Source: Pseudomonadota bacterium (lineage in GTDB: Bacteria > Pseudomonadota > Alphaproteobacteria > Rhizobiales > Aestuariivirgaceae). From it: a stretch of 39,525 nt of DNA. Position 1 is the stretch's first letter. The number at the start of each line of letters is the position of its first letter. Shown in pieces: positions 18,837 through 39,219 of this stretch. The notes beneath the pieces were generated by a model. It searched no databases and was not told the origin of the DNA. It saw nothing but the letters and a program-made list of their open reading frames with translations. The stretch lies in contig CAUJIO010000059.1 in NCBI GenBank assembly GCA_963205315.1, forward strand, positions 1 to 39,525, in the 5' to 3' direction. Made by a program: the position numbers and the translations under genes.

Positions 18837-18923
18837 GTACCCGTCAAGGGCATGCTCACGGCTGTGGATTGTCTTCAAAATCACCTGCGCTCGGTTCACT
18901 CCTTCTCTTCCGCCCAATAAAAA

Positions 18924-18948
18924 GGCGGCGGAATTTGATCCCGCCGCC
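18924..18948 (-). terminator. Terminator of the inositol-like operon
   Basis: Minus strand: GGCGGCGG-gatcaaatt-CCGCCGCC, a perfect 8-pair stem followed by TTTTTATT. It lies 82 bases after the stop at 19031 and closes the long operon that starts near 27.7 kb. Confidence 0.9.
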
Positions 18949-19030
18949 CTTGGGTTTGAAACCTATTCATCGTAGGGCACGCCCTGTCGCGTGTTCCACA
19001 ACCTGCGTCGTCCGTCTGAGGCAGACCCCG

Positions 19031-19933
19031 CTACGGCCAGTACTTGTCGACGTATTTCTGGATCTCACTGCGCATGAACCGCGAAGACTGCTCGGCACGG
19101 TCTTCCCATGCAAACACGCAAGCCGTCATGATGCCGTCGAACTTCACCTCGGCCAGCGTCCCGAAAAACACGTCCCAGTCAACTTCGCCCTGTCCGATGT
19201 CGAGATGCTGGTGCACCGTGACCTTGGCACCCGGCGGATTGACAATATAGCGAAGGCCCGACGAGGCCTTGTGGTTCAACGTATCAGCCACATGCACATG
19301 CGCCAGCACCGGCGCACAATCCCGGATCATCTGCGCCATGTCGTCACCGAAATAGAATGTATGCGGCGCGCAATACAGAAACTTCACGTATTTCGAATTG
19401 ATGACGCGGATCATATCGACGGCAGGATGCAGCGTCTCGCACCAATCTTCCGGATGCGGCTCCACATGCAGCGCGATCCCTTCCTTCTCGAAGACGGGCA
19501 CCAGTTCTTCCATCGAGCGCCACCAGGCCGCTTCGCTGGCTTCGACCGAATAATGCCCGCCGCAGCAATTGGAGTGGCTGGCGCGGTCTGGCGAAGGGCC
19601 ACGGCCGAATTCCGAATTGAGCACGGGGCAATCCATCTCGACGGCAATCTCGATGGCCCGCTTCCAATAGCTCACCGCCGTCTTGCGCTCGTCTTCATGC
19701 GGGCTGGCCCAGCGGTACATGGGCAGCAGTGACGCGAGTTTTACACCGTGGTCCTTCAGTGATTTCTTGAATTCCGCCATGCGCTCCGGATAGGCGCGTG
19801 GCTGCACCCACCAGGCCAGAAAATCCGGCCGCGGAGAAAGTTCGATGTACTCATAGCCCATCTCTGCGGCCAGCCGCGGAATTTCCGTCAGCGGCAAATG
19901 ACGATGCATGTGCGGATCGAGAGCGATCTTCAT
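19031..19933 (-). CDS. IolH-like TIM-barrel isomerase/epimerase family protein
   Basis: A 300-residue protein of the xylose isomerase-like TIM-barrel (AP_endonuc_2) superfamily. Likely metal ligands are seen in HVEPHPEDW, YLYCAPHTFYF-like and HVHVADTLNH segments and in the C-terminal motif VHQHLDIGQGEVDWDVFFG. That last motif together with SSGLRYIVNPPGAKV is what I recall from IolH-type proteins of inositol operons, whose exact reaction is not settled. ATG 19933 follows AAGGAGGG. It is the last gene of the nine-gene operon, 15 bases after the PanB-like gene, and is followed by a terminator. Assignment to the superfamily is firm; the IolH label is from memory of the motif. Confidence 0.75.
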   Translation of the reverse strand: MKIALDPHMHRHLPLTEIPRLAAEMGYEYIELSPRPDFLAWWVQPRAYPERMAEFKKSLKDHGVKLASLLPMYRWASPHEDERKTAVSYWKRAIEIAVEMDCPVLNSEFGRGPSPDRASHSNCCGGHYSVEASEAAWWRSMEELVPVFEKEGIALHVEPHPEDWCETLHPAVDMIRVINSKYVKFLYCAPHTFYFGDDMAQMIRDCAPVLAHVHVADTLNHKASSGLRYIVNPPGAKVTVHQHLDIGQGEVDWDVFFGTLAEVKFDGIMTACVFAWEDRAEQSSRFMRSEIQKYVDKYWP

Positions 19934-19948
19934 GTCGTGCCCTCCTTG

Positions 19949-20761
19949 TCAGACACCGGATTTGGCCAGCAGCGCCTTGAATTTTTCAAGTTCGCCGGGA
20001 ATTGACTTCACGACTTGCGCCGGTTCCGGGAAGGCACGACTCTGAACGTCGTTGTGGAACTCGCGGAACGCGGCGATCCGCTCTTGCTGCAGCCTGTCGT
20101 ATTCCGCGGCAAAGTTGCGATAGACCTTGGCATGCTTGGGAACGTGGCCGCGATTCTGACCCAACACGTCGTCCGAAAACAGATAGTTGCAGTCACAACC
20201 GGTGCCAGCGCCCATCGATATCATGAACAGCGGCGTGCGCTTCGAGATCTCCGCGGCAATGTCAGGCGGCACGACTTCGATTTCCATGCCGAAGGCGCCG
20301 GCCTCCTCGTATTTCTTGACCTTCTCCCAGACCTTCATGGCGCTGTCAGCCGTCTTGCCGACCGCCTTGAAGCCGCCGGTCCACGTGCACGTGTGCGGGA
20401 TGAGTCCGACGTGGCCGATCACCGGAATGCCCTCGTCCGCCATGCGGCGCACAGTCTGGAACGAGGCCGCGCAATAGACGGCATTGGCGCCAGCCCGCAT
20501 CATCCTGAAACCCCATCGCAGAAAATCGTCAGTGGGCCCTTCGGCTTCCCACAACGCTTGTCCCGGAACAGCAAAGATGCCGGGTGCGACATCACGGAAC
20601 TTTGGATCGACCAACATCTCAGGCGGGACCGAGCACATATCGATGCCCGCCGCCTGCGCGGCCGCAAGTTCGTCCCAGCTTGTCACGCGCATCATCGAGT
20701 ATTGATATTTGCCTTTGTTGGCGAAAACGTCTGCGACCGTCGGGGGGCTGAGGCGTTGCAT
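19949..20761 (-). CDS. PanB-like protein with altered active site
   Basis: A 270-residue protein of the ketopantoate hydroxymethyltransferase (PanB) fold. The PanB pattern is clear in GIPVIGHVGLIPHTCTWTGG, FKAVGKT, EEAGAFGMEIEVVPPDIAAE and the GAGTGCD segment, so H117 and E162 are retained. The residues that bind magnesium and ketoacid in true PanB are not: VGDS is replaced by SVPPE, the second Asp motif (D-M/L-P-F) by AVPGQ, and the Lys/Glu pair in AVKLEGG by AVYCAAS. Pantothenate synthesis is therefore unlikely. With its neighbours (dehydrogenase, isomerases, oxygenase) it more likely performs an aldol, retro-aldol or C1 step on a ring-derived keto acid; this is inference. The start follows AAGGACACTACG. 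Confidence 0.8.
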   Translation of the reverse strand: MQRLSPPTVADVFANKGKYQYSMMRVTSWDELAAAQAAGIDMCSVPPEMLVDPKFRDVAPGIFAVPGQALWEAEGPTDDFLRWGFRMMRAGANAVYCAASFQTVRRMADEGIPVIGHVGLIPHTCTWTGGFKAVGKTADSAMKVWEKVKKYEEAGAFGMEIEVVPPDIAAEISKRTPLFMISMGAGTGCDCNYLFSDDVLGQNRGHVPKHAKVYRNFAAEYDRLQQERIAAFREFHNDVQSRAFPEPAQVVKSIPGELEKFKALLAKSGV

Positions 20762-20798
20762 CGTAGTGTCCTTGTCCTGAGTGCGTGGAGATGATGGA

Positions 20799-21887
20799 TC
20801 AGCCGATCATGCCAGATGGCAGCGGCGGGGTTGGATTTGCGGTTGCCGGCAGATGACGGCGCACGAAGTAGTCGGGCTCCCTGACCTGGCGCAGAAGGGT
20901 CGGAATGATTTCCCGGTAGCAGGCCCAGAAGCCCACATAAGGCGGCGGGCAATCCTTCAGGATCTCGCGGTGAAGCTCTGGCAGCCGGTGATAGGGCACC
21001 ATCGGGAACATGTGGTGCTCGACGTGATAGTTCATGTTCCAGTAGACGAAGCGGCTGAAACGGTTGATGTACATGGTCCGGCAATTGAGCCTGTGATCGA
21101 GCACATCCTCGGCCAGCCCGATGTGCTGGGTAAGGCCCGTCATGAACATGTGCCAGGCGCCATACATGCTGGGCAGGCCGATGAGCATGGCGGGCAGAAT
21201 CGAACCCATGGCGATGCAGGCCGCAATCACGCCGAGGTAGATCACAGTCCAGACGCGGGCGACGAAGATCACCTTCCCCTGCTCCGCCTCCGGAATGAAA
21301 TCGCGCTCCGCTGCCGTCAACCGGCCCGCGGCATAGCGGAGCATGGCCCACCAAGCCTGTGGGACCATGAGAAGGCCGAAGACGTTCAGCAGCGCCTTGG
21401 CAAGCTCCGGCGGGCGCATCAAGATGATCTCCGGATCGCGGCCGACAATGATTGTATCGGTATGGTGGCGCGAGTGGCTCCAGCGCCAGACGGTCGGATT
21501 GCGCACCGTCATGAAGCAGGCAAGCTGATAGATGGCATCATTCTTCCACGGCGTTTTGAAAGCCGTGCCGTGGCCACATTCATGCCAGCGCGAGTCGCCG
21601 GCCGAGCCATACAGAACGCCATAGACGATGAAGAAGGGAACGCACCACCATGATCCCCAGAAATAGACTCCGAGTCCGCCTGCAACGGCCAACGCCAGAA
21701 ACCAGATGATCGTGTCGCGCGTCGCCGGCCCATCGGATCTCTGCATGAGTTCCTTCATGCGGGCGCGCGTAATGGGGGTCTTGTACCACTCCGCATTGGC
21801 AAGGCCGATCTGTACGGCGCGCCGGTTGAGAGGGCCTTCAAGGCTGTAGTTGCGCGGGTATGGAGCGCTTGCGGTTTCGTACGTCAT
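20799..21887 (-). CDS. MocD-like membrane di-iron oxygenase/desaturase
   Basis: A 362-residue integral-membrane protein of the fatty acid desaturase/hydroxylase superfamily. All three histidine boxes are present: H102-ECGH, H138-SRHH and H288-VEHH, plus H255 in TQHIGLAED. Transmembrane helices lie near residues 60-95 and 205-245. The TQHxGLAEDVLDHRLN pattern and the context match my recollection of MocD, the oxygenase proposed to demethylate the rhizopine 3-O-methyl-scyllo-inosamine in Rhizobium leguminosarum together with a ferredoxin (MocE) and reductase (MocF). Neither electron-transfer gene is in this window. It lies between an IolI-like gene and a PanB-like gene in a sugar-uptake operon, an odd place for a lipid desaturase. 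The start follows GGGAGA. Confidence 0.82.
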   Translation of the reverse strand: MTYETASAPYPRNYSLEGPLNRRAVQIGLANAEWYKTPITRARMKELMQRSDGPATRDTIIWFLALAVAGGLGVYFWGSWWCVPFFIVYGVLYGSAGDSRWHECGHGTAFKTPWKNDAIYQLACFMTVRNPTVWRWSHSRHHTDTIIVGRDPEIILMRPPELAKALLNVFGLLMVPQAWWAMLRYAAGRLTAAERDFIPEAEQGKVIFVARVWTVIYLGVIAACIAMGSILPAMLIGLPSMYGAWHMFMTGLTQHIGLAEDVLDHRLNCRTMYINRFSRFVYWNMNYHVEHHMFPMVPYHRLPELHREILKDCPPPYVGFWACYREIIPTLLRQVREPDYFVRRHLPATANPTPPLPSGMIG

Positions 21888-21951
21888 TGCTGATCTCCCT
21901 GTATTGCCTTGAAGTCAGGGTGGTTGGTGTATCGATGCGCGAAATCGCCTG

Positions 21952-22773
21952 TCACAGAAAACCCCGCAGATAGGCAAAGGACTTCGAAAGCGGCTCGCTC
22001 GCATCCTCCAACTGATGAATCTTCGGATCGAACGGCTCCATCGAAACATAGCCACGATATCCAGATGCGACGATGCGCTTCAACTGCCCTCCAGTATCGG
22101 TAATGTCCGAGCCGTCGACAAATCCCCGGTCAGGCTCTGTCAACGCCTCGGGTGCCAGATCGGTCCGGCTGATGCCCGAGACATGAACGAGACCAATCAA
22201 TTCAGGAAACAGTTTCTGATCGCGGCAGCGGTAATACTGGAACGTATCGTAACAGATCTGCAGTGGCCCTGCCCCGTTCACATCACCGATGGCTTCGGCG
22301 GCGATGTGCTGATTCTGCAACGTACTGCCCGCCATGCCAAGCGGTTCAACATATCCGATGACTCCGGTGTCCGAGGCCAGAGCCTTGATGGCCTCCAGGG
22401 ACTGGCGGAGCTTGGCCGCCAGCTCGGTCTTGCTCCACCCATGATGGAGATCGATCACCGGGCACATCACAATGCCAGGTGCGCCAAGTTCGGCGGCATA
22501 GCGAAACAGGGCTTCAGCTTCCTGCGCGCGCTCCGGTGTCCAGTCATTGAAGCGCTGCAATGCATTGATGGAGGCAACCGAAAGCCCGGCATCCGCGATG
22601 CGGGACTTGAGATCCCTTGCGGTCATGCCATCGGCGAATTCACGGCCTTCGACATCGTTGCGCACTTCGACGGCTGTTGCGCCGGCCTGGCGGGCGAGAT
22701 TGAGAAAGTCATCGAGGGGCAAGCGCGGCGCCACCATTCGGTTGATCGCAAACTGAATTGCAGGCTGTGTCAT
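21952..22773 (-). CDS. IolI-like TIM-barrel isomerase
   Basis: A 273-residue xylose isomerase-like TIM-barrel protein. The segments SINALQRFNDW, GYVEPLG, LQICYDTFQYYR, GLVHVSGI, LTEPDRGFVDGSD and GYVSMEPFDP follow the order seen in 2-keto-myo-inositol isomerase (IolI), including the Glu/Asp/His/Glu metal ligands. IolI interconverts inosose isomers. ATG 22773 stands behind GAGGAC; a nearby ATG in another frame stops at once. It lies 17 bases after the Gfo/Idh/MocA dehydrogenase gene, whose ketone product it could use. Substrate specificity is inferred from homology and neighbours. Confidence 0.8.
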   Translation of the reverse strand: MTQPAIQFAINRMVAPRLPLDDFLNLARQAGATAVEVRNDVEGREFADGMTARDLKSRIADAGLSVASINALQRFNDWTPERAQEAEALFRYAAELGAPGIVMCPVIDLHHGWSKTELAAKLRQSLEAIKALASDTGVIGYVEPLGMAGSTLQNQHIAAEAIGDVNGAGPLQICYDTFQYYRCRDQKLFPELIGLVHVSGISRTDLAPEALTEPDRGFVDGSDITDTGGQLKRIVASGYRGYVSMEPFDPKIHQLEDASEPLSKSFAYLRGFL

Positions 22774-22790
22774 GTCATGTCCTCGTTCGT

Positions 22791-23987
22791 TTATGGATCG
22801 ATCCAGCACTTGGTCCAGATGCCGCCAGACTCGTGACTGTCGGCACAGGCGTCAATGAACTTGACACCTCGCGCGCCATCTTCTGCCGTCGACACAGCGA
22901 GGAAGCCACCGGGAAGGCTTCTTTGCCCGCGCCGCTCTTCAACAGCCAGAGCGAGTTCAGTGTACATGTTGCCCCAGGCGTCACTGAGTGATTCTCCGTG
23001 GCCGCGCGGCAGGTGAATGAGGCGTTCCACGGCAGGCAGAACACCTGAGCCGTGGCCGCGAACTATCACCTGCTCCGGTTGGTTCAGGTAATTGACGCGC
23101 AGCTGCTCTGGGAATTCCTGATTCCACTCAATGCCACCCTTCAGACCAAAAATACGCAGGCGAAGCCCGCAGTAATTGCCCGGAGCCGCCTGGGTGATCC
23201 AGATCGATCCCGGTGCGCCATTGGCAAGCTTGATGTTCATGAACACCGTGTCTTCCAGATTCTTCGGCGCACCGCAGACATGGAAGTCGGCACGCACATC
23301 GGTAATCGCCTGACCACTCACATAGTTCGCCAGATGGAAGGCATGCGTGCCGATGTCGCCCGTGGCGGAGGCGCGGCCCACCTTCTTCGGATCGCGCCGC
23401 CATGCCGCCCCCTTGAAACTCGGGTCGTCGGGCGCCGTCGCCCAGTCCTGCGCATATTCAACGACGATCTGCCGGACATCACCAATGGCTCCGTCCGCCA
23501 CCATCAGCCGCGCCTGCCGCACCATCGGATGGTAGGTGTAGGGATAGGTCATGCCGAGAAACATGCCGGTCTCGCGGCGGATGCGCACCAGTTCCAACGC
23601 CTCATCCATCGAAATTGTCATCGGCTTGTCGAGAATGACATCAATGCCGGCACGCATGAAAGCAGCCGCCGGTTCGAAATGCAGATAATTCGGCGTGCAG
23701 ATGACAACAGCCTCGATACCGTCGGCGCGAGCTGCCTCGGCACGGAGCATGCCGTTGTAATCCGTGTAGGCGCGGTCGGGTGCGATCAGCCACGCAGCGG
23801 CCGAGGCCCTGGCGTTCTCAGGGTTGGAAGACATCGCTCCGGCAACGATGTCCCAACGGTTCGACAGCCTGATCCCGGTTGCGTGCCAGTCACCGACGAG
23901 GCCGCCCTTGCCCCCACCCACAAACCCCAGCCGCAACCGGCGTGAGGCTACTGGATATCGCGTGTCGTCACTTCCCATCATGGCCAT
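22791..23987 (-). CDS. Gfo/Idh/MocA family dehydrogenase
   Basis: A 398-residue NAD(P)-dependent oxidoreductase. The N-terminal Rossmann domain (about residues 9-150) has a glycine-rich loop [15 protein letters not shown]. The usual EKP motif is DKP in [10 protein letters not shown]. The C-terminal domain carries the catalytic Asp/His pair in [15 protein letters not shown]. The family includes inositol dehydrogenases (IolG) and MocA. ATG 23987 is preferred because AGGTGA lies 8 bases upstream; a GTG at 23999 is possible. It starts directly after the ATPase stop (coupled translation). With the IolI-like and MocD-like genes it suggests oxidation of an inositol-type polyol. Confidence 0.9.
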
Positions 23988-24000
23988 GGCATCGATCACC

Positions 24001-24756
24001 TCAAGTGCGGATCACGTGATCCGTCAGTTCTTCTATCGTCGTGTCCTTCTTGGTGGCCTCGAACACCTTGGTACCGTGGCTCATCACCACGAAGCGGTCG
24101 CAGACCATGAAGGCATGGTAGAGATTGTGAGTGACGAGCACACTGGACGTGCCCTGTTTCTTGAGGTCGCCCACATATTTCAACAGATGTTCTGTCTCGC
24201 GCACGGACAGCGCGGACGTCGGCTCGTCGAGCAGCAGGATGTTGCGCTTGAAATGCACCGCCCGCGCAATGGCGACGGCCTGTTTCTGGCCACCGGACAG
24301 GAAGCCCACTTCCTTGCGCGGATCGTCAATGCCGGAAATCTGCACTGCGCTCCCCAGGATATCGATCGCGACGTCTTCCATCTTCTTGTGATCCATGAAG
24401 CCGAAGCGGTTGGTAATCTCGCGGCCCATGAAGATGTTGCGCGTGATCGACATGGAATCGACCAGGGCAATATCCTGATAGATCGTTTCGATTCCCGCGG
24501 CTTCCGAATCCGAGCGCGTCCGGATCTCGGTCTTCTTGCCGTTGACAAAAATGTCACCCGAGGTGGGCGGATTGATGCCTGAGATCATCTTCACCAAGGT
24601 CGACTTGCCGGCGCCATTGTCGCCGAGCAAACCCACCACTTCATTTTTCGCGATATGGAAGTTCATGCTGTCAAGGGCAGTGAAGGACCCGTATTTCTTG
24701 GTGATGTTGCGAGCCTCGTAGAGCCAATCCGAGGAGCCTTCTGTGTTACTAGCCAT
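24001..24756 (-). CDS. Single-domain FrcA-type ABC sugar ATPase
   Basis: A 251-residue CUT2 ATPase with one nucleotide-binding domain: Walker [11 protein letters not shown] (K51), Q-loop [13 protein letters not shown], signature FLSGGQKQ, Walker [12 protein letters not shown] and the switch His in VLVTHN. Most CUT2 ATPases (RbsA, AraG) are about 500 residues with two domains. The half-size form is known from FrcA of the Sinorhizobium meliloti fructose importer, which also has the order binding protein, permease, ATPase found here. A homodimer of the protein is therefore expected. The ATG follows GAGGAGGGACATC. Confidence 0.92.
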
Positions 24757-24767
24757 GATGTCCCTCC

Positions 24768-25832
24768 TCAGGCCTTGGCGCGGCGGACCGCAGTGTTCAT
24801 GATGACGGCGATGACGATCATCGTGCCGACGAACATTTCAAAGTAGAAGGCCGGCGCCTGCAGCAGCAGCAACACATCCTGGATGGTGAAGACGAGTGCC
24901 GTGCCGAACAGAATTCCGAGGATGGAACCCCGGCCACCATTGAGCGCCAGCCCCCCAATGACGCAGGCCGCAATCGACTGCAGTTCCATGCCCAGGCCGC
25001 CGCCCGGCTGGATCGAGCCGACGCGTGTTGCCGCGACGATGCCGGAGAGCGTCGCCATGAAGCCTGCAATTGCAAACGCAATATACTTGGTGCGGGCGGG
25101 ATCGATGCCGATGGCAACGGCCGCATTGCGGTTGCCGCCGACGGCGTAGAAGTGATTGCCGAGCTTGTGATGATGCAGGAGATAATAAAAGATCACGCAA
25201 AAGATCAGAAACCAGATCATCGAGGCGTGAACGACACCGACTTCACCGCCGAACATCGTCGCAAACGGCTCCGTGGGTTTGAAACGGAGAGCCCGCGCAC
25301 CATGATACAGCAGCGTCCCGCCTTTCCAGATCAGCATGGCGCCGAGGGTCGTGATGAAGGATGGAATATTGAATCGCAACGTCACGAACGCATGCACGAT
25401 ACCGGCGAGCGTGCCGACGCCAAGTGCAACGGCCATGCCGATGAACGGTGCCACGGCGCTGGCTTCTGCTTCGCCGACATCACCCAGCAGGTTATTGCTG
25501 ACGGTGGCGCAGACAATGGCCGTGAACGAGTAGAGGGCGCCGACCGAGAGGTCGAATTCGCCGGCAATCATCAAGATTCCGACACCCAGCGCCATGATAC
25601 CAAGCGGTGCGATGGACTTGAGAACGACGGTGATATTGGCAGGCGCCAGATAACGGAACTGGTCGGGGAAGAGCAGGCCGAAGATGATCGCCGCAGCCTG
25701 AGCCGCGATGAACATGATGAAAATGCCGCCTTCGGGATTGTCACGGATCCAGTCCATGAACTTGTTCGCCAGGGGGCGCTTGTTGCGCTCCGCCACAGCT
25801 TTCCGGATGTGATCAGATTGGCCGCTCGACAT
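24768..25832 (-). CDS. RbsC/FrcC-type ABC permease
   Basis: A 354-residue permease of the CUT2 (ribose/fructose) type. It has an N-terminal cytoplasmic stretch, then about nine to ten hydrophobic helices. The family motifs GILMIAGEFDLSVGALYSFT and YAVGGNRNAAVAIGIDPART, and the C-terminal ACVIGGLALNGGRGSILGIL loop, are present. ATG 25832 is chosen because GGGAGGGG lies directly upstream; the frame is open to 25871. It follows the binding-protein gene across an 81-base gap with a perfect 12-base hairpin. Confidence 0.93.
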   Translation of the reverse strand: MSSGQSDHIRKAVAERNKRPLANKFMDWIRDNPEGGIFIMFIAAQAAAIIFGLLFPDQFRYLAPANITVVLKSIAPLGIMALGVGILMIAGEFDLSVGALYSFTAIVCATVSNNLLGDVGEAEASAVAPFIGMAVALGVGTLAGIVHAFVTLRFNIPSFITTLGAMLIWKGGTLLYHGARALRFKPTEPFATMFGGEVGVVHASMIWFLIFCVIFYYLLHHHKLGNHFYAVGGNRNAAVAIGIDPARTKYIAFAIAGFMATLSGIVAATRVGSIQPGGGLGMELQSIAACVIGGLALNGGRGSILGILFGTALVFTIQDVLLLLQAPAFYFEMFVGTMIVIAVIMNTAVRRAKA

Positions 25833-25857
25833 GTTCCCCTCCCAAGAGATTTCGATT

Positions 25858-25891
25858 GAGACTGGCGGCACTTTCCTTGGCCGCCAGTCTC
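25858..25891 (-). repeat. Intercistronic hairpin after the binding-protein gene
   Basis: GAGACTGGCGGC-(10)-GCCGCCAGTCTC, a perfect 12-base stem between the binding-protein stop (25914) and the permease start (25832), with no T run. It probably stabilises the binding-protein mRNA or partly terminates. Confidence 0.8.
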
Positions 25892-25913
25892 AGCTTGTTT
25901 CAGCCGCCGCCGC

Positions 25914-26897
25914 TTAGCGGACGGGGCCCGCCCACTTCACGGCGAACTCATAGTTGGTCTTGTCGATCAGACCGAGACCGCCGGTATCCATTTCGGAAGG
26001 ATAGAGGCCGTACTTGATATTGAGTGCGAGCTGCGTGACCGCATAGAAGCCCTGGCTGTAGGGCTGCTGGTCGACGGTGGCGGTGAGCTCGCCATTCTTG
26101 ATATTCTCCAGAATGGATTGCGACACGTCGAAGCCACCGGCCGGAATCTTGAGGCCCGCGTCCTTGATGGCCTGAACGGCCTGGCTGGTGGGCGTCTGGC
26201 CGAGGCCGACCACGGCATCGGTTTCCGGATGGCCTAGCAGGTACTGTGTCATCAGGTTCAAGGCGTTGGCGTGATCGTTGCCGGTACCGAGAATTTCGGT
26301 CGTGGCACCGATTTCATCCATTGCCTTCTTCACGCCGGCGTGGCGGAGGACGGCATAGGTAGCTTGCGGCGCTTCGACAGGCGTGAAAACGTGGTCGCCC
26401 TTCTTGAGGCCATGCTCCTTGATCATCCGCTTGCCGATCAGGTAGCCCGTTTCCACGAAGTTCTGGCCCATGAAGGCCATGCGGCAGAGACCCTCGGCAC
26501 CCTTCGAGTCGTCGATGTTGAAGGTGACGATCGGCATGCCCTTGGCAGCGGCATCGCACAGCAGCTTGTCATACGCGTCGTCATCCGCGACGTTCACCGC
26601 AATGCCGCTGACGCCATTGGCGATGCCGGTCTCGAGAATGCCGAGCTGGTTCTTCTGGTCCTCTTCGCCGAACTGCACATCGAGCTTGACGCCCTGCTGT
26701 TCAGCGGCATCCTTCGCACCGTTGACGACAGCTTCGAAGAAGGGATTGGACGATTGCGACCACGGAACGAAGAGAATGGTGATCTTCGACCATTCTTCCT
26801 TGTGATCGGAGTCGAAAGCCATCGACACCGTTGGCATGGCGAGCGCCACGGCGCCCGCAATGACTGTACCTGTCAGCAATTTCTTGATCATCGACAT
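25914..26897 (-). CDS. Periplasmic sugar-binding protein (RbsB/FrcB/MocB type)
   Basis: A 327-residue CUT2 binding protein. The signal peptide is about residues 1-27 (MSMIKKLL, hydrophobic core, SMAF). The type 1 periplasmic-binding fold follows, with FVPWSQSSNPFFEAVVNGAK, ASGIAV-like VSGIAVNVADDDAYD, PIVTFNIDDS, GLGQTPTSQAVQAIKDAGL and the DQQPYSQGFYAV hinge. ATG 26897 stands 6 bases behind GGAGG; the frame is open to 26999. It is the second gene of the operon after the GntR regulator, with a palindrome in the 105-base gap. The ligand is unknown; operon partners suggest an inositol-like polyol. Confidence 0.92.
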   Translation of the reverse strand: MSMIKKLLTGTVIAGAVALAMPTVSMAFDSDHKEEWSKITILFVPWSQSSNPFFEAVVNGAKDAAEQQGVKLDVQFGEEDQKNQLGILETGIANGVSGIAVNVADDDAYDKLLCDAAAKGMPIVTFNIDDSKGAEGLCRMAFMGQNFVETGYLIGKRMIKEHGLKKGDHVFTPVEAPQATYAVLRHAGVKKAMDEIGATTEILGTGNDHANALNLMTQYLLGHPETDAVVGLGQTPTSQAVQAIKDAGLKIPAGGFDVSQSILENIKNGELTATVDQQPYSQGFYAVTQLALNIKYGLYPSEMDTGGLGLIDKTNYEFAVKWAGPVR

Positions 26898-26955
26898 TGG
26901 GTTCCTCCCGTTTGCGGCCAGCAGATTTTCGCATGTCCCGGTGACCGCTTCCGGA

Positions 26956-26974
26956 ACAGATTCGTATATTCTGT
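26956..26974. promoter_or_regulatory. Candidate GntR operator before the binding-protein gene
   Basis: ACAGA-(9)-TCTGT, a 19-base dyad with a 5-base perfect arm and an AT-rich centre (TTCGTATAT), 59 bases before ATG 26897. It may bind the GntR protein encoded just upstream. Confidence 0.4.
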
Positions 26975-27002
26975 GATGCGCACTCATCCGCTGCGCCACC
27001 GC

Positions 27003-27707
27003 TCACCAGCTCTTGTTGCCGAAGATGCGTTGAATGCCGGAGTTCAGATGTTCGCGCATGGCATTTGCGGCAGCAGATTCGTTGCCGCTCTCGATGCCTG
27101 AGAGAATGGCCCGGTGCTCTGCTGCGACGCGCCTCGAGGTGGCGTTTGGTGCAACTTGACGCAATTGCCGCGCTAACTTGAGCCCAAACAGAATGTGCGG
27201 CATCAGGGTTTCGAGCGTCATGACGTAATAGCGGCTGCGTGTGGCCTGAGCGATGGCAATGTGAAACGCCAGATCGGACTCCAGGATTGACGAGTCTTTG
27301 ACCTGGCCATTTTCCATGTCCTGGACGCTCTGGCGAATCCCTGCCACGGCGGCTGGATCAGCCCGGCGCGCGGCGAGGCCTGCCGCGGCGGTCTCGATGA
27401 CCATGCGGAAACGCATGCAATCTTCCAGATCGGCAAGCGACTCAGGCTGGCCGAAGGGCAGGATTGCCGGGGTCTTTCCGCAGGTGAAGGTGCCGGAGCC
27501 TCTCCGCGATTCGATCAGGCCTTCCTGTTTCAGCACCGCCAGAGCCTGGCGCAGCACGGGCCGCGATATGCCCAACCGCTCGGCGAGCACGGATTCCGAC
27601 GGCAAGCGCGAGCCGTGAGCATATGCAGGCAATGCAATCATGTCGCGGACTGCGGCAACTGCGTTTGCCATCAGCGGCGTAGCCAGATTTTCTGCGTGCT
27701 CCCCCAT
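27003..27707 (-). CDS. GntR family regulator of the inositol-like operon
   Basis: A 234-residue FadR/FCD regulator. The winged helix is at about residues 12-80 (SRLPSESVLAERLGISRPVL, then RQALAVLKQEGLIESRRGSG) and the FCD domain follows, with ligands in DLAFHIAIAQATRS and EHRAIL. ATG 27707 begins the normal family N-terminus; the frame is open to 27770 across AT-rich promoter-like DNA. It is the first gene of the nine-gene minus-strand run and most likely represses it until the imported substrate or its metabolite binds. Confidence 0.87.
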   Translation of the reverse strand: MGEHAENLATPLMANAVAAVRDMIALPAYAHGSRLPSESVLAERLGISRPVLRQALAVLKQEGLIESRRGSGTFTCGKTPAILPFGQPESLADLEDCMRFRMVIETAAAGLAARRADPAAVAGIRQSVQDMENGQVKDSSILESDLAFHIAIAQATRSRYYVMTLETLMPHILFGLKLARQLRQVAPNATSRRVAAEHRAILSGIESGNESAAANAMREHLNSGIQRIFGNKSW

Positions 27708-27760
27708 GACCGCAAGGAAGCACAAGTAAAATTGCGAGACAATATATTTTAGCAATATTC

Positions 27761-27776
27761 GTTGCTGCACCGCAAC
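27761..27776. promoter_or_regulatory. Inverted repeat upstream of the GntR gene
   Basis: GTTGC-tgcacc-GCAAC, a perfect 5-6-5 dyad 54 bases before ATG 27707, in AT-rich DNA that also holds ATTGC-(16)-GCAAT (27731-27756). It is a plausible autoregulatory operator. Confidence 0.4.
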
Positions 27777-28768: not shown

Positions 28769-29650
28769 ATGAAGCTTTCTGGCGTGCTCCCGGCCCTCGT
28801 CACTCCGTTCGATCAGCAAGGCAACATCGACTTCAAGGCTTTCGAAAAACACCTGACCAACCTGCGGGCGGCCGGTGTCTCAGGGTGGGTCCCCTGCGGA
28901 TCGTCCGGCGAATACAATCTCATGTCGGATGACGAGCGCGACGAGGTTCTGAAATTCGTCAAGGCCTTCGCCAAGCCCGGTGAAACGCTGATTGCAGGCA
29001 CAAATGCACCTCACACCAAAGGTGTGATCGCCAATACCAAGCGCGCCAAACAGATCGGCTACGATACCGTGCTTCTGGCAACGCCGTTCTACACCAAGCC
29101 ATCGCAGACCGAGCTCATCAAGCATTTCAACACGGTGCTTGATGCGGTGGATGTCAACATCGTGCTCTACAGCTATCCCGCGAAAGATGGCGTTGAACTC
29201 GAATGGGAGCTGCTCGACGCGCTGGCCGATCATCCGCGCGTCATTGGCATCAAGGAAAGCTCGGGCGTATTGCAGCGCGCAATTGGCATCGCCACCCGCT
29301 ACAAGGACCGCATCCAGCTCGTCTCCGGCTCTGACGATATCGCGCTCGACTTCATGTTCTGGGGGGCTGACAGCTGGATCTGCGGTCCGGCAAACTGCAT
29401 GGCCAAAGCCGTGTGCGATCTTGACCGCACCTACCGTTCGGGCGACATGACCAAGGCCCGGTCCCAGATGGCAACTCTCTATGCCGCGATGAACATCCTT
29501 GAATCGGGAAAGTTCGTTCAGAAGCTCAAGTATGGCTGCGAACTGCTGGGAACATCCGTCGGCGAATGCCGTGCGCCGCTTGGTCCGCTGACGGATGACG
29601 AAAAGTCTGCCTTCCGGGCCGCCATGGAGCCAATCATCAACTGGAAATGA
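28769..29650 (+). CDS. DapA-family aldolase/deaminase
   Basis: A 293-residue TIM-barrel lyase of the dihydrodipicolinate synthase family. The substrate carboxylate motif is GSSGE (canonical GTTGE), the catalytic Tyr is Y134 in YSYP, and the Schiff-base lysine is K162 in VIGIKESSG. In hydroxyproline catabolism a member of this family (HypD) is the pyrroline-4-hydroxy-2-carboxylate deaminase. The two downstream genes, an amine dehydrogenase and a proline-racemase homologue, fit that pathway. Other aldolase reactions are possible. ATG 28769 follows AAGGA. It is the first gene of the plus-strand operon. Confidence 0.87.
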   Translation: MKLSGVLPALVTPFDQQGNIDFKAFEKHLTNLRAAGVSGWVPCGSSGEYNLMSDDERDEVLKFVKAFAKPGETLIAGTNAPHTKGVIANTKRAKQIGYDTVLLATPFYTKPSQTELIKHFNTVLDAVDVNIVLYSYPAKDGVELEWELLDALADHPRVIGIKESSGVLQRAIGIATRYKDRIQLVSGSDDIALDFMFWGADSWICGPANCMAKAVCDLDRTYRSGDMTKARSQMATLYAAMNILESGKFVQKLKYGCELLGTSVGECRAPLGPLTDDEKSAFRAAMEPIINWK

Positions 29651-29701
29651 CAGCGGCCGTGAGGAACTTGCACGATCAATTCCAGTCAGCGTGATGCGAA
29701 C

Positions 29702-30934
29702 ATGACTACGGTTATCGTCGGCGCCGGAGTAATTGGAACCACACTGGCATATGAGCTGCAACGCCGGGGCCGCGATGTTGTCATGATCGAGCGCGACGCG
29801 CCGGGCAAAGGCGCATCCTTCGGCAACATGGCTTCAATTGCCGTCACCGAGTTCATGCCCGCGTCACGGCCATCGATCTGGAAGCAGATCCCGGGCTGGA
29901 TGCTGGACCCCGAAGGTCCGGTGCGGGTGCGGCCGTCTTATATGCCGAAACTGCTTCCCTGGTTCCTGCGGTTCATTGCGGCATCGCGACCTTCGGTCCT
30001 TCGAGAGCTGGAAGCGCAAGGCGCTGCTCTCTGCGCACGCGTCTACGACGACTTGCTGCCGTTGTTACGCGACACCAGCCTCGAAAGCGAGCTCACGGAC
30101 GTAGGTTGCCTTTCGCTCTATGCGGATGAAGCCGAATTCAAGGCCGACCGGGAGCACATCGATATCCTCGAACGGTTCGGTTTCCCACATGAGGTCATCG
30201 GCCCGCAGGCAATCAAGATGCTGGAGCCCGAGATCTCCGACAGGATCGGCATGGCGGTTGTCTTCCCGCAGAATCGCTCAGTGCGCGATCCCTATCGCCT
30301 GGTTGTGAAGCTCGCCGAGCGCTTCTCCGCTCTTGGCGGACAGACCGTCACTGGCGACGTTACCGGTTTTGAACGCAGTGAAGGTATGCGGGCGGCAATC
30401 CTGCGCGATGGCCGCCGCATTGAAGCAAACGAGATTGTCATCTGCGCCGGAGCGCATTCGGCACGGCTCGCGGACATGCTGGACGAACCGATCCCGCTGG
30501 AAACCGAGCGTGGGTATCATACGCAGATCATGTCGCCGGGCATCGCGATCAAGCATTCCATCATCTGGCCGGCACGCGCCTTCATGGTGACGCCAACTGC
30601 GGGCGGCATCCGGGTCGGCGGCACTGTCGAAATGGCGGGACTCGACGCGCCACCCGATTACCGGCGGTCGAAGGTCACGGTGAGGCGCGCAAAGGAGGCC
30701 TTGCCCAATTTGACGTGCGAAAACTTCACCGAATGGATGGGGCATCGCCCGGCGTTGCCCGACACGATTCCGGTCATGTCGGCTTCACGGAAAACCAAAG
30801 GCCTGTTCTATGCAACCGGTCACGGCCATCTGGGCCTCACATATGCCGCGACCAACGCGCGGCTGATGGCTGATCTCATGACCGGTGCCAAGCCGCCGAT
30901 CGACATGCGGCCGTATCGCATCAACCGCTTTTGA
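29702..30934 (+). CDS. DadA-like FAD-dependent amine dehydrogenase
   Basis: A 410-residue member of the DAO/D-amino-acid dehydrogenase family. The dinucleotide-binding motif VIVGAGVIGTTLAYELQRRG ends in the acidic residues of MIERD. The C-terminal motif ATGHGHLGLTYAATNARLMA closes the FAD site. In the hydroxyproline route this type of enzyme oxidises cis-4-hydroxy-D-proline. It lies 51 bases after the DapA-like gene and 12 bases before the racemase-like gene. The ribosome binding site is weak. The substrate is inferred from context. Confidence 0.87.
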   Translation: MTTVIVGAGVIGTTLAYELQRRGRDVVMIERDAPGKGASFGNMASIAVTEFMPASRPSIWKQIPGWMLDPEGPVRVRPSYMPKLLPWFLRFIAASRPSVLRELEAQGAALCARVYDDLLPLLRDTSLESELTDVGCLSLYADEAEFKADREHIDILERFGFPHEVIGPQAIKMLEPEISDRIGMAVVFPQNRSVRDPYRLVVKLAERFSALGGQTVTGDVTGFERSEGMRAAILRDGRRIEANEIVICAGAHSARLADMLDEPIPLETERGYHTQIMSPGIAIKHSIIWPARAFMVTPTAGGIRVGGTVEMAGLDAPPDYRRSKVTVRRAKEALPNLTCENFTEWMGHRPALPDTIPVMSASRKTKGLFYATGHGHLGLTYAATNARLMADLMTGAKPPIDMRPYRINRF

Positions 30935-30946
30935 AAGACCTGCATC

Positions 30947-31978
30947 ATGTGGAAGAACAGCCTTGAACTGTTACTGGTGCATTGCCAGGGTGAGATCGGA
31001 AAAGTTGTCACCGGCGGTGCGCCCGGGATTCCCGGTGACACGATTCTCGACAAGATGAATTACATCAACACCGTCGATGACAGTCTGCGCCGCTTCGTGA
31101 CGTTCGAGCCGCGCGCCCATGTGGCAATGACAGTCAACCTTCTGCTGCCGCCATGCCGGCCTGATGCCGATGCCGCGTTCATCGTTCTGCAAGCTGATCG
31201 CGCTCATCCGATGAGTGGATCGAACTGCATCTGCGTTGTGACGGCACTGCTTGAAACCGGACGCGTGAAGATGGTGGAGCCGACGACGATCGTGAAGCTG
31301 GATACGGCCGCTGGCCTCATCACTGCCCGTGCTGCTTGCGAGAACGGACGCTGCAAATCGGTGAGCCTCGACAATGTACCGGCATTCGCCGTGGAGATTA
31401 ACGCCCCCGTTCGCACGACGAAATGGGGAACGATCAAGGCCGATATCGCCTTCGGCGGAGTCTTCTACGCCCTGATTGATGTGGCGCAGATCGGCTTGAC
31501 GATCACGCGTGACAACGCCAGGGCGCTCGCCGAAGCAGGGATCGAGATCAAGTCGCTGCTCAAGGAGCAAACCCGCGTTTCCCATCCAGACATTCCAGGG
31601 CTCGACGAGGTGGCCTATGTCATGTTCCGCGACCGGGATCCCGATGGCGCGGTTCGCACCTGCACGACATTGAAGCCGGGACGTGTCGACCGCAGTCCCT
31701 GCGGCACGGGATCTTCCGCCAATCTTGCCGTCCTCCATGCCAGGGGTCTGGTCAAGACGGGAGACAAACTTCTGTCCCGCTCCATCATCGATGGCACATT
31801 CACGGCCGAAGCCATTGGCGATATCATGATCGGCAAGCACCGGGCGGTGTTGCCGCGCATCACTGGCGAAGCATGGATCTATGGCCGCGAGGAACTCCGA
31901 TTGGATGAGTCAGATCCTTTTCCGCGAGGATTTGCCCTCTCTGACAGCTGGGGTCCACAGGTCGGTGAACTCGGCTGA
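30947..31978 (+). CDS. Proline racemase superfamily protein with Ser/Cys pair
   Basis: A 343-residue member of the proline racemase/4-hydroxyproline epimerase superfamily. The second catalytic cysteine is present: C252 in DRSPCGTGSSANL. The first motif, M-C-G-H-G in racemases and epimerases, reads MSGSNCICVV, so the Cys is S90 and the following His is S92. The family also contains trans-3-hydroxyproline dehydratases, which have Thr at the first site, so the reaction here may be an epimerisation or a dehydration of a hydroxyproline-like substrate. Two extra cysteines (C94, C96) lie beside the altered motif. The operon partners are consistent with hydroxyproline use. The length is normal. Confidence 0.88.
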   Translation: MWKNSLELLLVHCQGEIGKVVTGGAPGIPGDTILDKMNYINTVDDSLRRFVTFEPRAHVAMTVNLLLPPCRPDADAAFIVLQADRAHPMSGSNCICVVTALLETGRVKMVEPTTIVKLDTAAGLITARAACENGRCKSVSLDNVPAFAVEINAPVRTTKWGTIKADIAFGGVFYALIDVAQIGLTITRDNARALAEAGIEIKSLLKEQTRVSHPDIPGLDEVAYVMFRDRDPDGAVRTCTTLKPGRVDRSPCGTGSSANLAVLHARGLVKTGDKLLSRSIIDGTFTAEAIGDIMIGKHRAVLPRITGEAWIYGREELRLDESDPFPRGFALSDSWGPQVGELG

Positions 31979-32128
31979 GAACAGGCGGTGTCATCGTCGT
32001 TGGTCCAGACCTAAGATTCAGATGCGTTCTGTCAACGATCGTGCGGAGATTCAGGTGCTGAACAATGCAAGGCAGGCTCGTGTTGGAGGCAATCCGTACA
32101 ACGAACCGAAGGACGCGAACGAAGGAGA

Positions 32129-33169
32129 TTATGTGTAGATCGACTGATCGATGGAGCTCTCCCGGCTGATCGGTTCCGCGGCCTGCACCAGACAGTCGCC
32201 AGCTTCGCACATGGTGTGCAGCCGCCGGGAGATCACGATTCCGCCCTCGGCAAAACGAAGTGGCTGCTCTGTTTCGTCGAGCCGTTCGAAATCGTGAAGC
32301 CAGCCTGCAATCTGGCCTTCCTCGACAGTTTCACCCAAGCGGACCGCTGGTTCGAACCATCCGCGCCGCGTGGCGTAAATGCCCTGGCTATGGCGCGCGA
32401 GCGAGAGCAGTTGGGTCGATGCCGCAGCAGCCAACCCATTCGACAAGACAGGTGCCGCAACCACGCCAAGAGTCATCAGAAGCCGGTCAATGGCGTTTGC
32501 GGTTGCAGCCACGCTGGCAACGGTTGCTGTACCGCCGCCGCCGAACTCGCCGCTGATGCCAATCGATCCGGCCCGGCTTGCAGCTCCCATTGAAGTGGGG
32601 GCGTGGGGACCATTGTCGGCGATGAAGGCGTGGGGGATGCCAAGCGACATCATCAGATCTATTGCCTTGCGATTGCGCGCCGGATCGGCGTTTCGCTCAA
32701 CCAAGGCCGTCAAAAGATGCTCCATCGAGGTTCCTCCGGAATGCAGGTCGAAGATGACATCGTGGCGCGGAAACAGTTCCTTTTCGAGAAAGTGGGCGAG
32801 ACGGCTGGTGGGTGTGCCGGCCGGATCACCGGGGAAAGCCCGGTTCAGATTTCCTCCGTCCAGAGGCGAGCAGCGCCTGGCCGCCATGACTGCCGGCATG
32901 TTTGCTGTGGGCAATATCGTTACGCTCCCCGTCATTTTCCCGGGATCGAGCCTGCGGATGAGCTTGGCCAGGCAGAGCTCGCCTTCGTATTCATCACCAT
33001 GGTTTCCGGCCATCAGGAGGATCGATGGGCCATGAGAGTTACGAATACGGCAAACAGGGATCTTGATCTGGTAATAGGGGGAACGGTCGATCGAGAACGG
33101 AATGCCGATGTGGCCGAGCGTGCGGCCCTCGCGGTCGAAGTCGAGCGTGTGAATCACTCCGGTATGCAT
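32129..33169 (-). CDS. AstE/AspA-type (DoeB-like) zinc deacylase
   Basis: A 346-residue enzyme of the succinylglutamate desuccinylase/aspartoacylase family (M14-like). Zinc ligands are His57 and Glu60 in AGNHGDEYEGE and the His of DLHSGGTS; the substrate motif GGNLNRAFPGD is also present. Related proteins remove an acyl group from N-acylated amino acids, for example DoeB in ectoine breakdown. A GTG at 33172 precedes ATG 33169; no strong ribosome binding site is seen. It is a single minus-strand gene, divergent from the amidohydrolase gene at 33316, and could supply hydrolysis of an N-acyl substrate. The substrate is unknown. Confidence 0.82.
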   Translation of the reverse strand: MHTGVIHTLDFDREGRTLGHIGIPFSIDRSPYYQIKIPVCRIRNSHGPSILLMAGNHGDEYEGELCLAKLIRRLDPGKMTGSVTILPTANMPAVMAARRCSPLDGGNLNRAFPGDPAGTPTSRLAHFLEKELFPRHDVIFDLHSGGTSMEHLLTALVERNADPARNRKAIDLMMSLGIPHAFIADNGPHAPTSMGAASRAGSIGISGEFGGGGTATVASVAATANAIDRLLMTLGVVAAPVLSNGLAAAASTQLLSLARHSQGIYATRRGWFEPAVRLGETVEEGQIAGWLHDFERLDETEQPLRFAEGGIVISRRLHTMCEAGDCLVQAAEPISRESSIDQSIYT

Positions 33170-33213
33170 CACTTCATCTCACGCATTCACAACGGCGATC
33201 GTTCGAAGCACTC

Positions 33214-33303
33214 ATCATGTTATCGGACCTTCTCTCTGATTTCGCTCTTCATCCCGATCAAACTCAGGCACGCATGTGGATGGACTCGCGATCATGTTAT
33301 GAT
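33214..33303. promoter_or_regulatory. Repeated ATCATGTTAT sites in divergent promoter region
   Basis: The 10-mer ATCATGTTAT occurs at 33214-33223 and again at 33291-33300. The second copy is part of the perfect dyad ATCAT-gtt-ATGAT (33291-33303). The region separates the deacylase and amidohydrolase genes and contains TATGAT (33298-33303) as a possible -10 box only about 13 bases before ATG 33316. Confidence 0.4.
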
Positions 33304-33315
33304 AGTCTCGCAAAC

Positions 33316-34224
33316 ATGACAAAGCTCTATGACGGTCCGATCATCGATGCCCATCATCACTTGTGGGATTTGGAGCTCAAGCGTCATCCCTGGCTCAGTC
33401 CAGAAGCCGCGGGGCGCAGTGGTCTCGGTGCGCTCGATCCGATCAGGCGGAATTATCTCGCTGCGGACTATCGGCGCGACGCGCACAATTTCAACATCGT
33501 CGCGACCGTCCATATCGAAGCCAGCTGGCAGGCTGATGATTGCGTCGGCGAAACCAGATGGCTGGAAAGCATCGACAAGCCTGGCGGCGTCGCAACCCGC
33601 TATGTCGCGCATGTGCCGCTTGGCAGTCCTCGCGCTCAGGCCCTGCTCGACGAGCAGGCGGCATTTGAACGGGTCGTGGGGATTCGCGATATCCTCAGCT
33701 GGGATCCTGATCCTGCGAGGCGGTTTGCGGCACGTGACGGAATCATGAATGAGCCCGAATGGCGGCAAGGCCTCGCTGGTCTCAAGCGCCACGGCATGAG
33801 TTTCGACCTGATGGTGTTCGCACGTCAGTTGCCGGATGCCGCCAGGCTGGCCGCGCACTTTCCGGACCAGCAGTTCGTCCTCAATCACTGCGGCAGCCCC
33901 ATCGACCGGGATGAGGCGGGCATGGAGGCGTGGCGGAACGGCCTGTTGCTTCTGGCGCGCCAGCCCAATGTGGCGATCAAGATTTCCGATCTTGTTGCCT
34001 ACGACCATGACTGGTCTCTCGATAGCCTGCGGCCGGTCGTGAGGCACTGCATCGATTGCTTCGGTCCTGATCGTGCAATGTTCGCCAGCGACTTCCCGGT
34101 TGCCGGCCTGCATGCGACGTTTGACGAAGTATACGGGAGCTTCAAGACCATTGTCAGTGACCTCACGCCAAATGAACAGAACGCGCTGTTCTATGGCACG
34201 GCCAAACGCATCTATCGGCTCTAG
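33316..34224 (+). CDS. COG3618 amidohydrolase (fuconolactonase-like)
   Basis: A 302-residue metal-dependent hydrolase of the amidohydrolase_2 group. The metal motif is IIDAHHHLWDL near the N-terminus, followed by the HPWL segment typical of COG3618. Further signatures are VHIEASW, FVLNHCGSP and FASDFPVAGL. The family includes L-fuconolactonase, galactonolactonase and 2-pyrone-4,6-dicarboxylate lactonase. ATG 33316 starts exactly at the family N-terminus, with no Shine-Dalgarno sequence and a possible short leader. The frame is open to 33217. It ends 6 bases from the convergent permease stop. With the neighbouring sugar importer it may open a sugar lactone; this is inference. Confidence 0.87.
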   Translation: MTKLYDGPIIDAHHHLWDLELKRHPWLSPEAAGRSGLGALDPIRRNYLAADYRRDAHNFNIVATVHIEASWQADDCVGETRWLESIDKPGGVATRYVAHVPLGSPRAQALLDEQAAFERVVGIRDILSWDPDPARRFAARDGIMNEPEWRQGLAGLKRHGMSFDLMVFARQLPDAARLAAHFPDQQFVLNHCGSPIDRDEAGMEAWRNGLLLLARQPNVAIKISDLVAYDHDWSLDSLRPVVRHCIDCFGPDRAMFASDFPVAGLHATFDEVYGSFKTIVSDLTPNEQNALFYGTAKRIYRL

Positions 34225-34230
34225 GCTGCA

Positions 34231-35205
34231 TCACCGCCGGACCTTCTCCCGGCCCGAGAGCAGCAACAGGATCAAGACGAGAGACCCGAACAGAATGCTG
34301 CGCCAGCCTGCGGAAGCATTGACGACGGTGATGAGAGCTGTAATCGTGACAAGCAGCAGCGCGCCGGGCATGGTTCCGGCATATGTGCCGAGCCCGCCCA
34401 GAATAGATGTACCGCCCAGCACGACCGCCGCAATGGATGCCAGCAGATAGGGATCACCGATCCCGACATAGCCTTGCCCGTTCATGCCGAGCAGCAAGAC
34501 TCCTGCAAGGCCTGCCGTGAATCCGCTGATGGCATAGACCACAGTCGTCGTGGCTTGTAGCGGAACACCCGATAACCTGGAGGCGAGCGGATTGGCTCCG
34601 ATGGCATAGATGCGGGTGCCCAGCGGCGTTGCATGCATGATGAGAAGAACGAGCGCCGATACGCCTAGCCACACGAAGACCCCTGCCGGGATGCCAGCCG
34701 GCCTCGCATTGCCCAGCCACGCCACCAGCGGGTTTTGCGATGATATTGCGCTGCCGCCTGCGATGATGATGAGCAGGCCCTGCAGGAAAGTCGCCATAGC
34801 CAAGGTCATGATCATCGGATGGACACGCAGGTAAGCCACACCGAGGCCGTTTCCGAGGCCGATGAAGGTCGTCATGACAAGTGTCGCCAGGATCGCTGTG
34901 AGGCCAGTCGGATCAGCGTCGATCGAAAGCAGCGGAAGGCTGACGGCGCTGACCGTGACGATCGCCGCAATGGAAAGATCTATGCCGCCGGCAATCACGA
35001 CGAAGGTCTGGCCCGCCGCGACGAGACCAATCACCGATGCCAGTTCGACGAGATAGCGAAGATGGCCGAAGGCGCCGAAGCCGGGCCGCATCACGCTTGC
35101 CACGGCCCAGACCAGCAACACCGTGGCGAAGGTGAGAAACGGCCGGCTGCGAAGCACCATTGAGGCGCGGCGGGTGAAAGATGCAGCTGATGTGCTCGAG
35201 TTCAT
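34231..35205 (-). CDS. RbsC-type ABC permease (second)
   Basis: A 324-residue CUT2 permease with about nine hydrophobic helices and the motifs AGQTFVVIAGGIDLSIAAIV, IYAIGANPLASRLSGVPL and AVVLGGTSILGGLGTYAGTM. ATG 35205 overlaps the stop of the first permease (ATGA) and stands behind GGAAGAG; longer readings of the frame run into the other permease gene and are rejected. It forms a heterodimeric channel with the 35202-36170 product. Confidence 0.93.
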   Translation of the reverse strand: MNSSTSAASFTRRASMVLRSRPFLTFATVLLVWAVASVMRPGFGAFGHLRYLVELASVIGLVAAGQTFVVIAGGIDLSIAAIVTVSAVSLPLLSIDADPTGLTAILATLVMTTFIGLGNGLGVAYLRVHPMIMTLAMATFLQGLLIIIAGGSAISSQNPLVAWLGNARPAGIPAGVFVWLGVSALVLLIMHATPLGTRIYAIGANPLASRLSGVPLQATTTVVYAISGFTAGLAGVLLLGMNGQGYVGIGDPYLLASIAAVVLGGTSILGGLGTYAGTMPGALLLVTITALITVVNASAGWRSILFGSLVLILLLLSGREKVRR

Positions 35206-37675: not shown

Positions 37676-37693
37676 GGCCGGGAGTCTGATGGA

Positions 37694-38746: not shown

Positions 38747-39219
38747 GACGTTTCCCTTACTGTTTTCATTGCGGCGCCCGGGATTGAATCGAGCCTTACG
38801 GTCCTGCGCGAGATGAACGGTATGTCCCGCCAAAGTCTTCACACGCCAGCCATTCTGAATTTCCGGTATAGTCGATCGTAACTTTGTTTCCCGGACAATC
38901 GGCACGCTATATGGAGTATCAACTTATTTCAAGTGCTGTTGCGCGGCCTCTACGATATTTCGGCAACGATCTCACTTTTACTGGAACTGACAATAACTTA
39001 TTCGGCAAGCGCACACCATCGCTGTGCCGCAGACAGCCACAACACCGAACGAAACTCTGCTGAAACAGCGAACCCGCGATCCGGCTGTCCGGCATCACAG
39101 GCTTGATGAATCCGGCTCGACCTATGAATTACGGCATATTCACAATCCTTATTGCAGCAGAGATGCCGGAGATATCTCGCCACGGCTGGAGCAAGATGTG
39201 GCTTTTTTTCATAAGCCCC
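38747..39219. other. Intergenic region before the second CUT2 operon
   Basis: There is no supported gene in these 473 bases. The part near 38.9 kb is AT-richer and should hold the promoter of the importer operon, but I see no clear sigma-70 pair. The only dyad I note is GAGATATCTC (39169-39178). Upstream IclR-type control is plausible because the iclR-like gene precedes it on the same strand. Confidence 0.5.

Follow-up and report, generated by a model that had tools for sequence, protein, structure and literature searches.

Comparison with described moc systems

In the moc model of rhizopine catabolism, MocD is proposed to perform an O-demethylation. According to a title cited in PMC5789663, the model is one of a ferredoxin-oxygenase complex feeding inositol breakdown, and the available part of PMC3538637 ties TIM-barrel genes adjoining mocD to the catabolism of inositol derivatives. 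Here, we analysed a 39,525-nucleotide stretch (the window), which is contig C59 in a draft genome of 4.67 Mb, and in it a nine-gene operon encoding a MocD-like oxygenase and a relative of the ketopantoate hydroxymethyltransferase PanB, named PanBL below.

With the rhizopine mocCABRDEF genes of Sinorhizobium meliloti and Rhizobium leguminosarum, the operon shares the binding protein, the Gfo/Idh dehydrogenase, a xylose-isomerase-like protein and MocD. It differs in having a GntR/FCD regulator instead of MocR, its own permease and ATPase, and a second TIM-barrel gene; moreover, mocE and mocF lie elsewhere in the genome (contig C15), and no PurU of the genome scored over its cut-off. Rhizobium and Peteryoungia carry LacI-regulated mocDEF-PanBL clusters, that of R. 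etli p42e among them, which share MocD, PanBL and an IolI-type TIM barrel with the operon. They differ in the LacI regulator, in having mocE and mocF between MocD and PanBL, and in the importer, which is of another kind or missing from the stretch. We regard the operon logic as fairly firm, namely that of a variant of the known moc/inositol-type catabolic systems.

The MocD-like protein was 60-63% identical to five MocD proteins from mocDEF operons, contained an FA_desaturase domain, and its three His boxes were invariant across the six aligned sequences. This agrees with the preliminary description of this DNA, which had recognised a three-His-box oxygenase resembling MocD; judged from sequence, oxidative demethylation is its probable role. 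The same description reported the moc ferredoxin and reductase to be absent. That is true of the window, in which tblastn with relatives (E up to 1e-8) detected no mocE, mocF, purU or folD, but not of the genome, since contig C15 bears a mocD-mocE-mocF set.

A closely similar operon was found in another genome of the same genus (G566). The order GntR, binding protein, permease, ATPase, IolI, MocD, PanBL, IolH was kept at 58-89% identity (regulator 58%, permease 72% and ATPase 89% in L196), with the Gfo gene missing at that place. An FA_hydroxylase gene and a Gfo gene come after the G566 operon, and on the far side of its regulator there are a further FA_hydroxylase, purU, iolG, mocE, an IolI-type gene and mocF. 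The neighbouring mocE, mocF and purU support electron supply by MocE/MocF and a tetrahydrofolate (THF) branch for operons of the window type.

Pairing of PanBL with oxygenases

The preliminary description proposed a neighbourhood search for the desaturase-PanB pair. Run by tblastn, the survey covered 85 PanBL loci, comprising 80 genome-contig loci (the best 80 of at least 530 matches) and five plasmid loci, and it revealed a conserved pair. An oxygenase of the MocD or FA_hydroxylase type lay within the fetched stretch at 82 of the 85 loci. The exceptions were L013 and L021, on contigs that end 699 and 1,710 bases ahead of PanBL, and L043, whose PanBL has purU next after it; a further locus of the L043 genome, L065, has MocD. 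Relatives of MocD, MocE, MocF or FA_hydroxylase occurred within 1.5 kb of PanBL at 81/85 loci, compared with 0/26 true panB loci. When the set was thinned below 88% identity, the oxygenase was still present in the stretch at 38 of 40 loci.

The gene order varied, and we observed MocD-MocE-MocF-PanBL, MocD-MocE-PanBL, FA_hydroxylase-MocE-PanBL, as well as PanBL behind an importer with a divergent MocD. The pairing persists through rearrangement and through swapped importers, dehydrogenases and oxygenases. Such variety of orders and partners suggests that the PanBL-oxygenase pair has been selected for, rather than that a single operon was simply inherited. A second PanBL in the window's genome, on contig C93, adjoins an FA_hydroxylase protein. 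Between groEL and this second PanBL (L093:4055-7487), we noted an AAA-type ATPase gene and an overlapping protease-like gene, both labelled by eye.

Distant members were sought by scanning 385 genomes of the class and fetching the surroundings of the best PanBLs. Together with the window, C93, the S. meliloti locus and the same-genus loci, this gave 34 further loci, 23 of which had an oxygenase relative. Pfam identified PhyH proteins at L139, L140, L141 and L150, the last also with TauD, while L136 and L138 had relatives of MocD, MocE and MocF. L138 also carries gluconolactonase-like and dehydratase genes, a hint of methylated sugars. Nine lower-scoring stretches (L153-L161) matched true PanB best and were excluded from the PanBL counts; one of them, L155, shows a weak (27%) match to MocE. 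The 1.6 Mb AT-rich genome G161 (L138-L140) has four PanBL genes, with MocD, FA_hydroxylase, PhyH and GH4 among their neighbours, which may reflect the use of several methylated sugars. The idea that PanBL is peculiar to the window operon was rejected, as relatives were found in plasmids, in genome contigs and in genomes of the class.

PanBL in rhizopine-type moc loci

In five plasmid records, a PanBL (59-65% identical, tblastn) follows mocD-mocE-mocF. The genes next after PanBL are purU and folD in L004, iolG in L005, purU in L006 and L008, and an unrelated gene in L007. The MocR adjoining the Phyllobacterium locus L006 scored 765 against the rhizopine MocR cut-off of 650 and thus passes, and R. 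leguminosarum L008 has the same gene order. S. meliloti L095 contains mocB, mocR, mocD, mocE, mocF, PanBL and purU, and its MocR is 93% identical to that of L006. In these rhizopine-type loci, PanBL stands directly 3' of mocF and purU comes next. As the order is the same in L006, L008 and L095, PanBL belongs to rhizopine-type moc loci, contrary to the earlier statement that the PanB partner is not among the known moc genes.

The mocD of S. meliloti RCAM1115 (L095:10644-11728) spans two frames and is unannotated; it may be broken, or the frame change may be a sequencing error or misread. In R. etli and R. johnstonii (L007, L234, L235), the mocDEF-PanBL cluster is located between cob (cobalamin) and nadA, nadC (NAD) biosynthesis genes. 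A term search of PMC10107442 returned neither panB nor hydroxymethyltransferase nor formaldehyde. Searches of an open library of papers, which did not extend to the first moc publications (Rossbach 1994; Bahar 1998), brought up no previous account of a link between PanBL and oxygenases.

PanBL is distinct from PanB

PanBLs formed a clade separate from PanB in our tree; the program that built it flagged a meeting of long branches between L177, a PanB row, and the rows of PanBL. In the numbering of the genome's own PanB, D49, K118 and E120 were absent in 75/75 PanBLs and D88 in 74/75. We take these four residues to be the Mg2+ and keto-acid ligands of PanB, and the corresponding Asp, Asp, Lys and Glu are all missing from the window PanBL. 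The PanB His and Glu were retained, and Glu160 and His210 are new invariant residues of PanBLs. The PanB-type TIM barrel fold is predicted to be kept.

The window PanBL matched Pantoate_transf over the Pfam cut-off but remained under both curated NCBIfam panB cut-offs (TIGR00222, 101.1 vs 207.55; PRK00311, 116 vs 272). A true panB, over cut-off, is present on contig C45 of the same genome. As reported in PMC3082293, a PanBL relative from R. etli was unable to complement a panB mutant ("data not shown" there); the paper treats it as a paralogue without a pantothenate role and does not contain the term mocD. In the annotated public plasmid records among the matches listed, PanBL is labelled 3-methyl-2-oxobutanoate or ketopantoate hydroxymethyltransferase, and some records add a GO term for pantothenate, at odds with the R. 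etli result.

Proposed pathway and alternative readings

In the proposed pathway, the importer would take up a cyclitol of the inositol or inosamine kind that is O-methylated or possibly N-methylated. The MocD-like di-iron enzyme would hydroxylate the methyl group, yielding the demethylated polyol and formaldehyde, or a short-lived hydroxymethyl ether, with electrons supplied in trans by MocE and MocF from elsewhere in the genome. The polyol would then be directed to the iolE/iolD pathway through oxidation and isomerisation by the Gfo/Idh dehydrogenase and both TIM-barrel proteins. PanBL would load the formaldehyde or hydroxymethyl unit on THF to give 5,10-methylene-THF, which FolD, and PurU in some relatives, could carry on to formate. 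We hold this outline with about even confidence. The window's genome encodes a FolD (61% identity) but no PurU over the cut-off, so the route there may not run as far as formate.

The available part of PMC3891541 describes the purU-mabO-folD operon of pAO1 nicotine catabolism, in which demethylation is coupled to THF and followed by FolD and PurU. There, the demethylating oxidase MABO is itself given as the maker of methylene-THF, and that part of the paper mentions no PanB-like partner. A review, in its available part (PMC8879981), presents the condensation of formaldehyde with THF as spontaneous, whereas tetrahydromethanopterin and glutathione have activating enzymes, Fae and Gfa, respectively. 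We tentatively propose, at somewhat less than even confidence, that PanBL does for folate what Fae and Gfa do for their carriers, acting as a dedicated formaldehyde (or hydroxymethyl)-tetrahydrofolate transferase. It would have been derived from PanB by loss of the Mg2+/keto-acid site and recruited beside unrelated oxygenases (MocD, FA_hydroxylase and a few PhyH/TauD) that strip methyls from polyols and sugars. The likeness to the systems of PMC8879981 is one of logic: the proposed shared feature is enzyme-sped capture of formaldehyde by a carrier, and the carrier differs.

Several observations weigh against the proposed pathway. The C15 mocDEF set has no adjoining PanBL. Just 12/85 loci have a same-strand purU after PanBL (a weak 34% opposite-strand match at L029 was left out), folD relatives occur in 3/85 (L004, L006, L008), and purU or folD lies within 3 kb in 4 of the 40 thinned loci; among the 26 true panB loci, one also has a folD relative within 1.5 kb. 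The idea of purU as a constant PanBL partner was rejected on the 12/85 count and on the window's genome, in which no PurU exceeds the family cut-off. Furthermore, tblastn recognised no oxygenase neighbour for nine PanBLs (L142-L149, L151) of one deep 14-row tree group, nor did Pfam among seven neighbour genes from five of these loci. L132 (at a contig start) and L135 (MocE and PurU only) also have no oxygenase relative. The nine proteins possibly have a different function. NMT1-like binding proteins or a TRAP transporter are encoded close to some of them, and seven lack the Tyr that the window PanBL has at position 96.

It is also conceivable, though rather unlikely in our view, that PanBL acts independently of folate, as a lyase or hydrolase splitting a hydroxymethyl ether or hemiaminal, or as a MocD helper, while free formaldehyde is cleared otherwise. 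The same oxygenase synteny fits this role, and so do the low purU and folD counts and the lack of a purU over the cut-off in the window's genome. However, the kinship of PanBL to a folate-dependent hydroxymethyltransferase and its recurring purU/folD neighbours would then become a coincidence.

The preliminary description left the choice between a C1 (one-carbon) step and an aldol step by the PanB-like enzyme. Our results support the former and make the latter less likely, because the residues taken to bind Mg2+ and the keto acid in PanB are lost. We consider it improbable that PanBL is an aldolase or a C-C lyase acting on a keto compound derived from a sugar, with an indirect oxygenase link, since D49, K118 and E120 are gone from all 75 PanBLs and D88 from all but one, and since importers and dehydrogenases change while PanBL and the oxygenase persist.

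A desaturase acting on membrane lipids within an ordinary sugar operon would account for the FA_desaturase family and for weak NCBIfam desaturase matches under cut-off, but it is very improbable given the identity to MocD of mocDEF sets and the importer and dehydrogenase genes adjoining in many surveyed loci. Finally, a second ketopantoate hydroxymethyltransferase, as suggested by the Pantoate_transf match and the plasmid annotation, is scarcely credible, and a pantothenate role was rejected on the scores under both panB cut-offs, the lost active-site residues, the existing panB on C45 and the R. etli relative that does not function as PanB.

Organisation of the operon and its surroundings

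All nine open reading frames (ORFs) were found on the minus strand (Table 1), with 1 to 105 bases between adjacent genes at the preferred starts. The ORFs, their families and the hairpin bear out the earlier account of nine short-gap genes running from a GntR regulator to one terminator. The terminator-bearing stretch 18900-19036 folded better than all 200 shuffles (z -3.5); the hairpin was not among the entries of a consensus terminator scan, and an Rfam search of the window gave zero matches.

Table 1. Genes and terminator of the operon, in order of transcription.
Feature	Position	Strand	Basis
GntR/FCD regulator, operon gene 1	27003-27770	-	Pfam GntR + FCD
Periplasmic sugar/polyol-binding protein	25914-26897, alternative ORF start 26999	-	Peripla_BP_4
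Importer permease	24768-25871	-	BPD_transp_2
Importer ATPase, one ABC domain	24001-24756	-	ABC_tran
Gfo/Idh/MocA dehydrogenase	22791-23999	-	Pfam
IolI-like xylose-isomerase-like TIM barrel	21952-22773	-	AP_endonuc_2
MocD-like membrane di-iron oxygenase	20799-21887	-	FA_desaturase
PanB-like protein (PanBL)	19949-20761	-	Pantoate_transf
IolH-like xylose-isomerase-like TIM barrel	19031-19933	-	AP_endonuc_2
Intrinsic terminator, GC-rich hairpin GGCGGCGG...CCGCCGCC then TTTTT	18919-18948	-	sequence + fold

The regulator is not a member of the rhizopine MocR family (NF052281, 25.5 bits, cut-off 650). The binding protein had the rhizopine binding-protein model NF052284 as its best NCBIfam match, at 119.9 bits against a cut-off of 420, and is likewise not a member; its best PDB sequence match was 4ru1. 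That cut-off is a weak test, because the binding protein of Phyllobacterium L006 scored just 43.6 bits although the L006 MocR passes its own. Peripla_BP_4, BPD_transp_2 and ABC_tran are all present, as in a CUT2-type sugar importer.

The best PDB sequence matches of the Gfo/Idh/MocA dehydrogenase were 3v5n (306 bits), 7d5m, 7d5n and 3dty. The IolI-like protein matched 4hgx/2q02, belongs to no NCBIfam family, and is 31-40% identical to the TIM-barrel genes adjoining mocDEF in L004, L005 and L007. For the IolH-like protein, all NCBIfam matches were far under cut-off, and relatives with 76-77% identity occur within importer/Gfo operons, adjoining iolD and Gfo/Idh genes in Aureimonas and Gfo/Idh genes in Ensifer. 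The earlier labels IolI-like and IolH-like stand as far as the AP_endonuc_2 family goes; they are names of resemblance. The window's genome has two iolD and one iolE above cut-offs. Of the scheme first suggested (import of an O-methyl-inositol or inosamine, demethylation, oxidation, isomerisation), a moc-related inositol-type operon and a probable oxidative demethylase are supported.

Elsewhere in the window (28769-38905), we noted genes for DapA-like, DAO-type oxidoreductase, proline racemase, AstE/AspA-type, amidohydrolase and second sugar-type importer proteins, suggestive of a cluster for the catabolism of hydroxyproline or amino acids.

Implications for C1 metabolism

In Escherichia coli, the measured spontaneous rate of formaldehyde condensation with THF was too slow to feed growth, as stated in the available part of PMC7073904. 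PanB was named there as one of two possible promiscuous catalysts, growth was unchanged without them, and an uncharacterised enzyme was not ruled out. PanBL, as a family that accompanies demethylation-type oxygenases, offers a concrete candidate for the enzymatic formaldehyde-THF step. If this is true, rhizopine catabolism would gain a C1 exit, and the common annotation of these proteins as PanB would be corrected.

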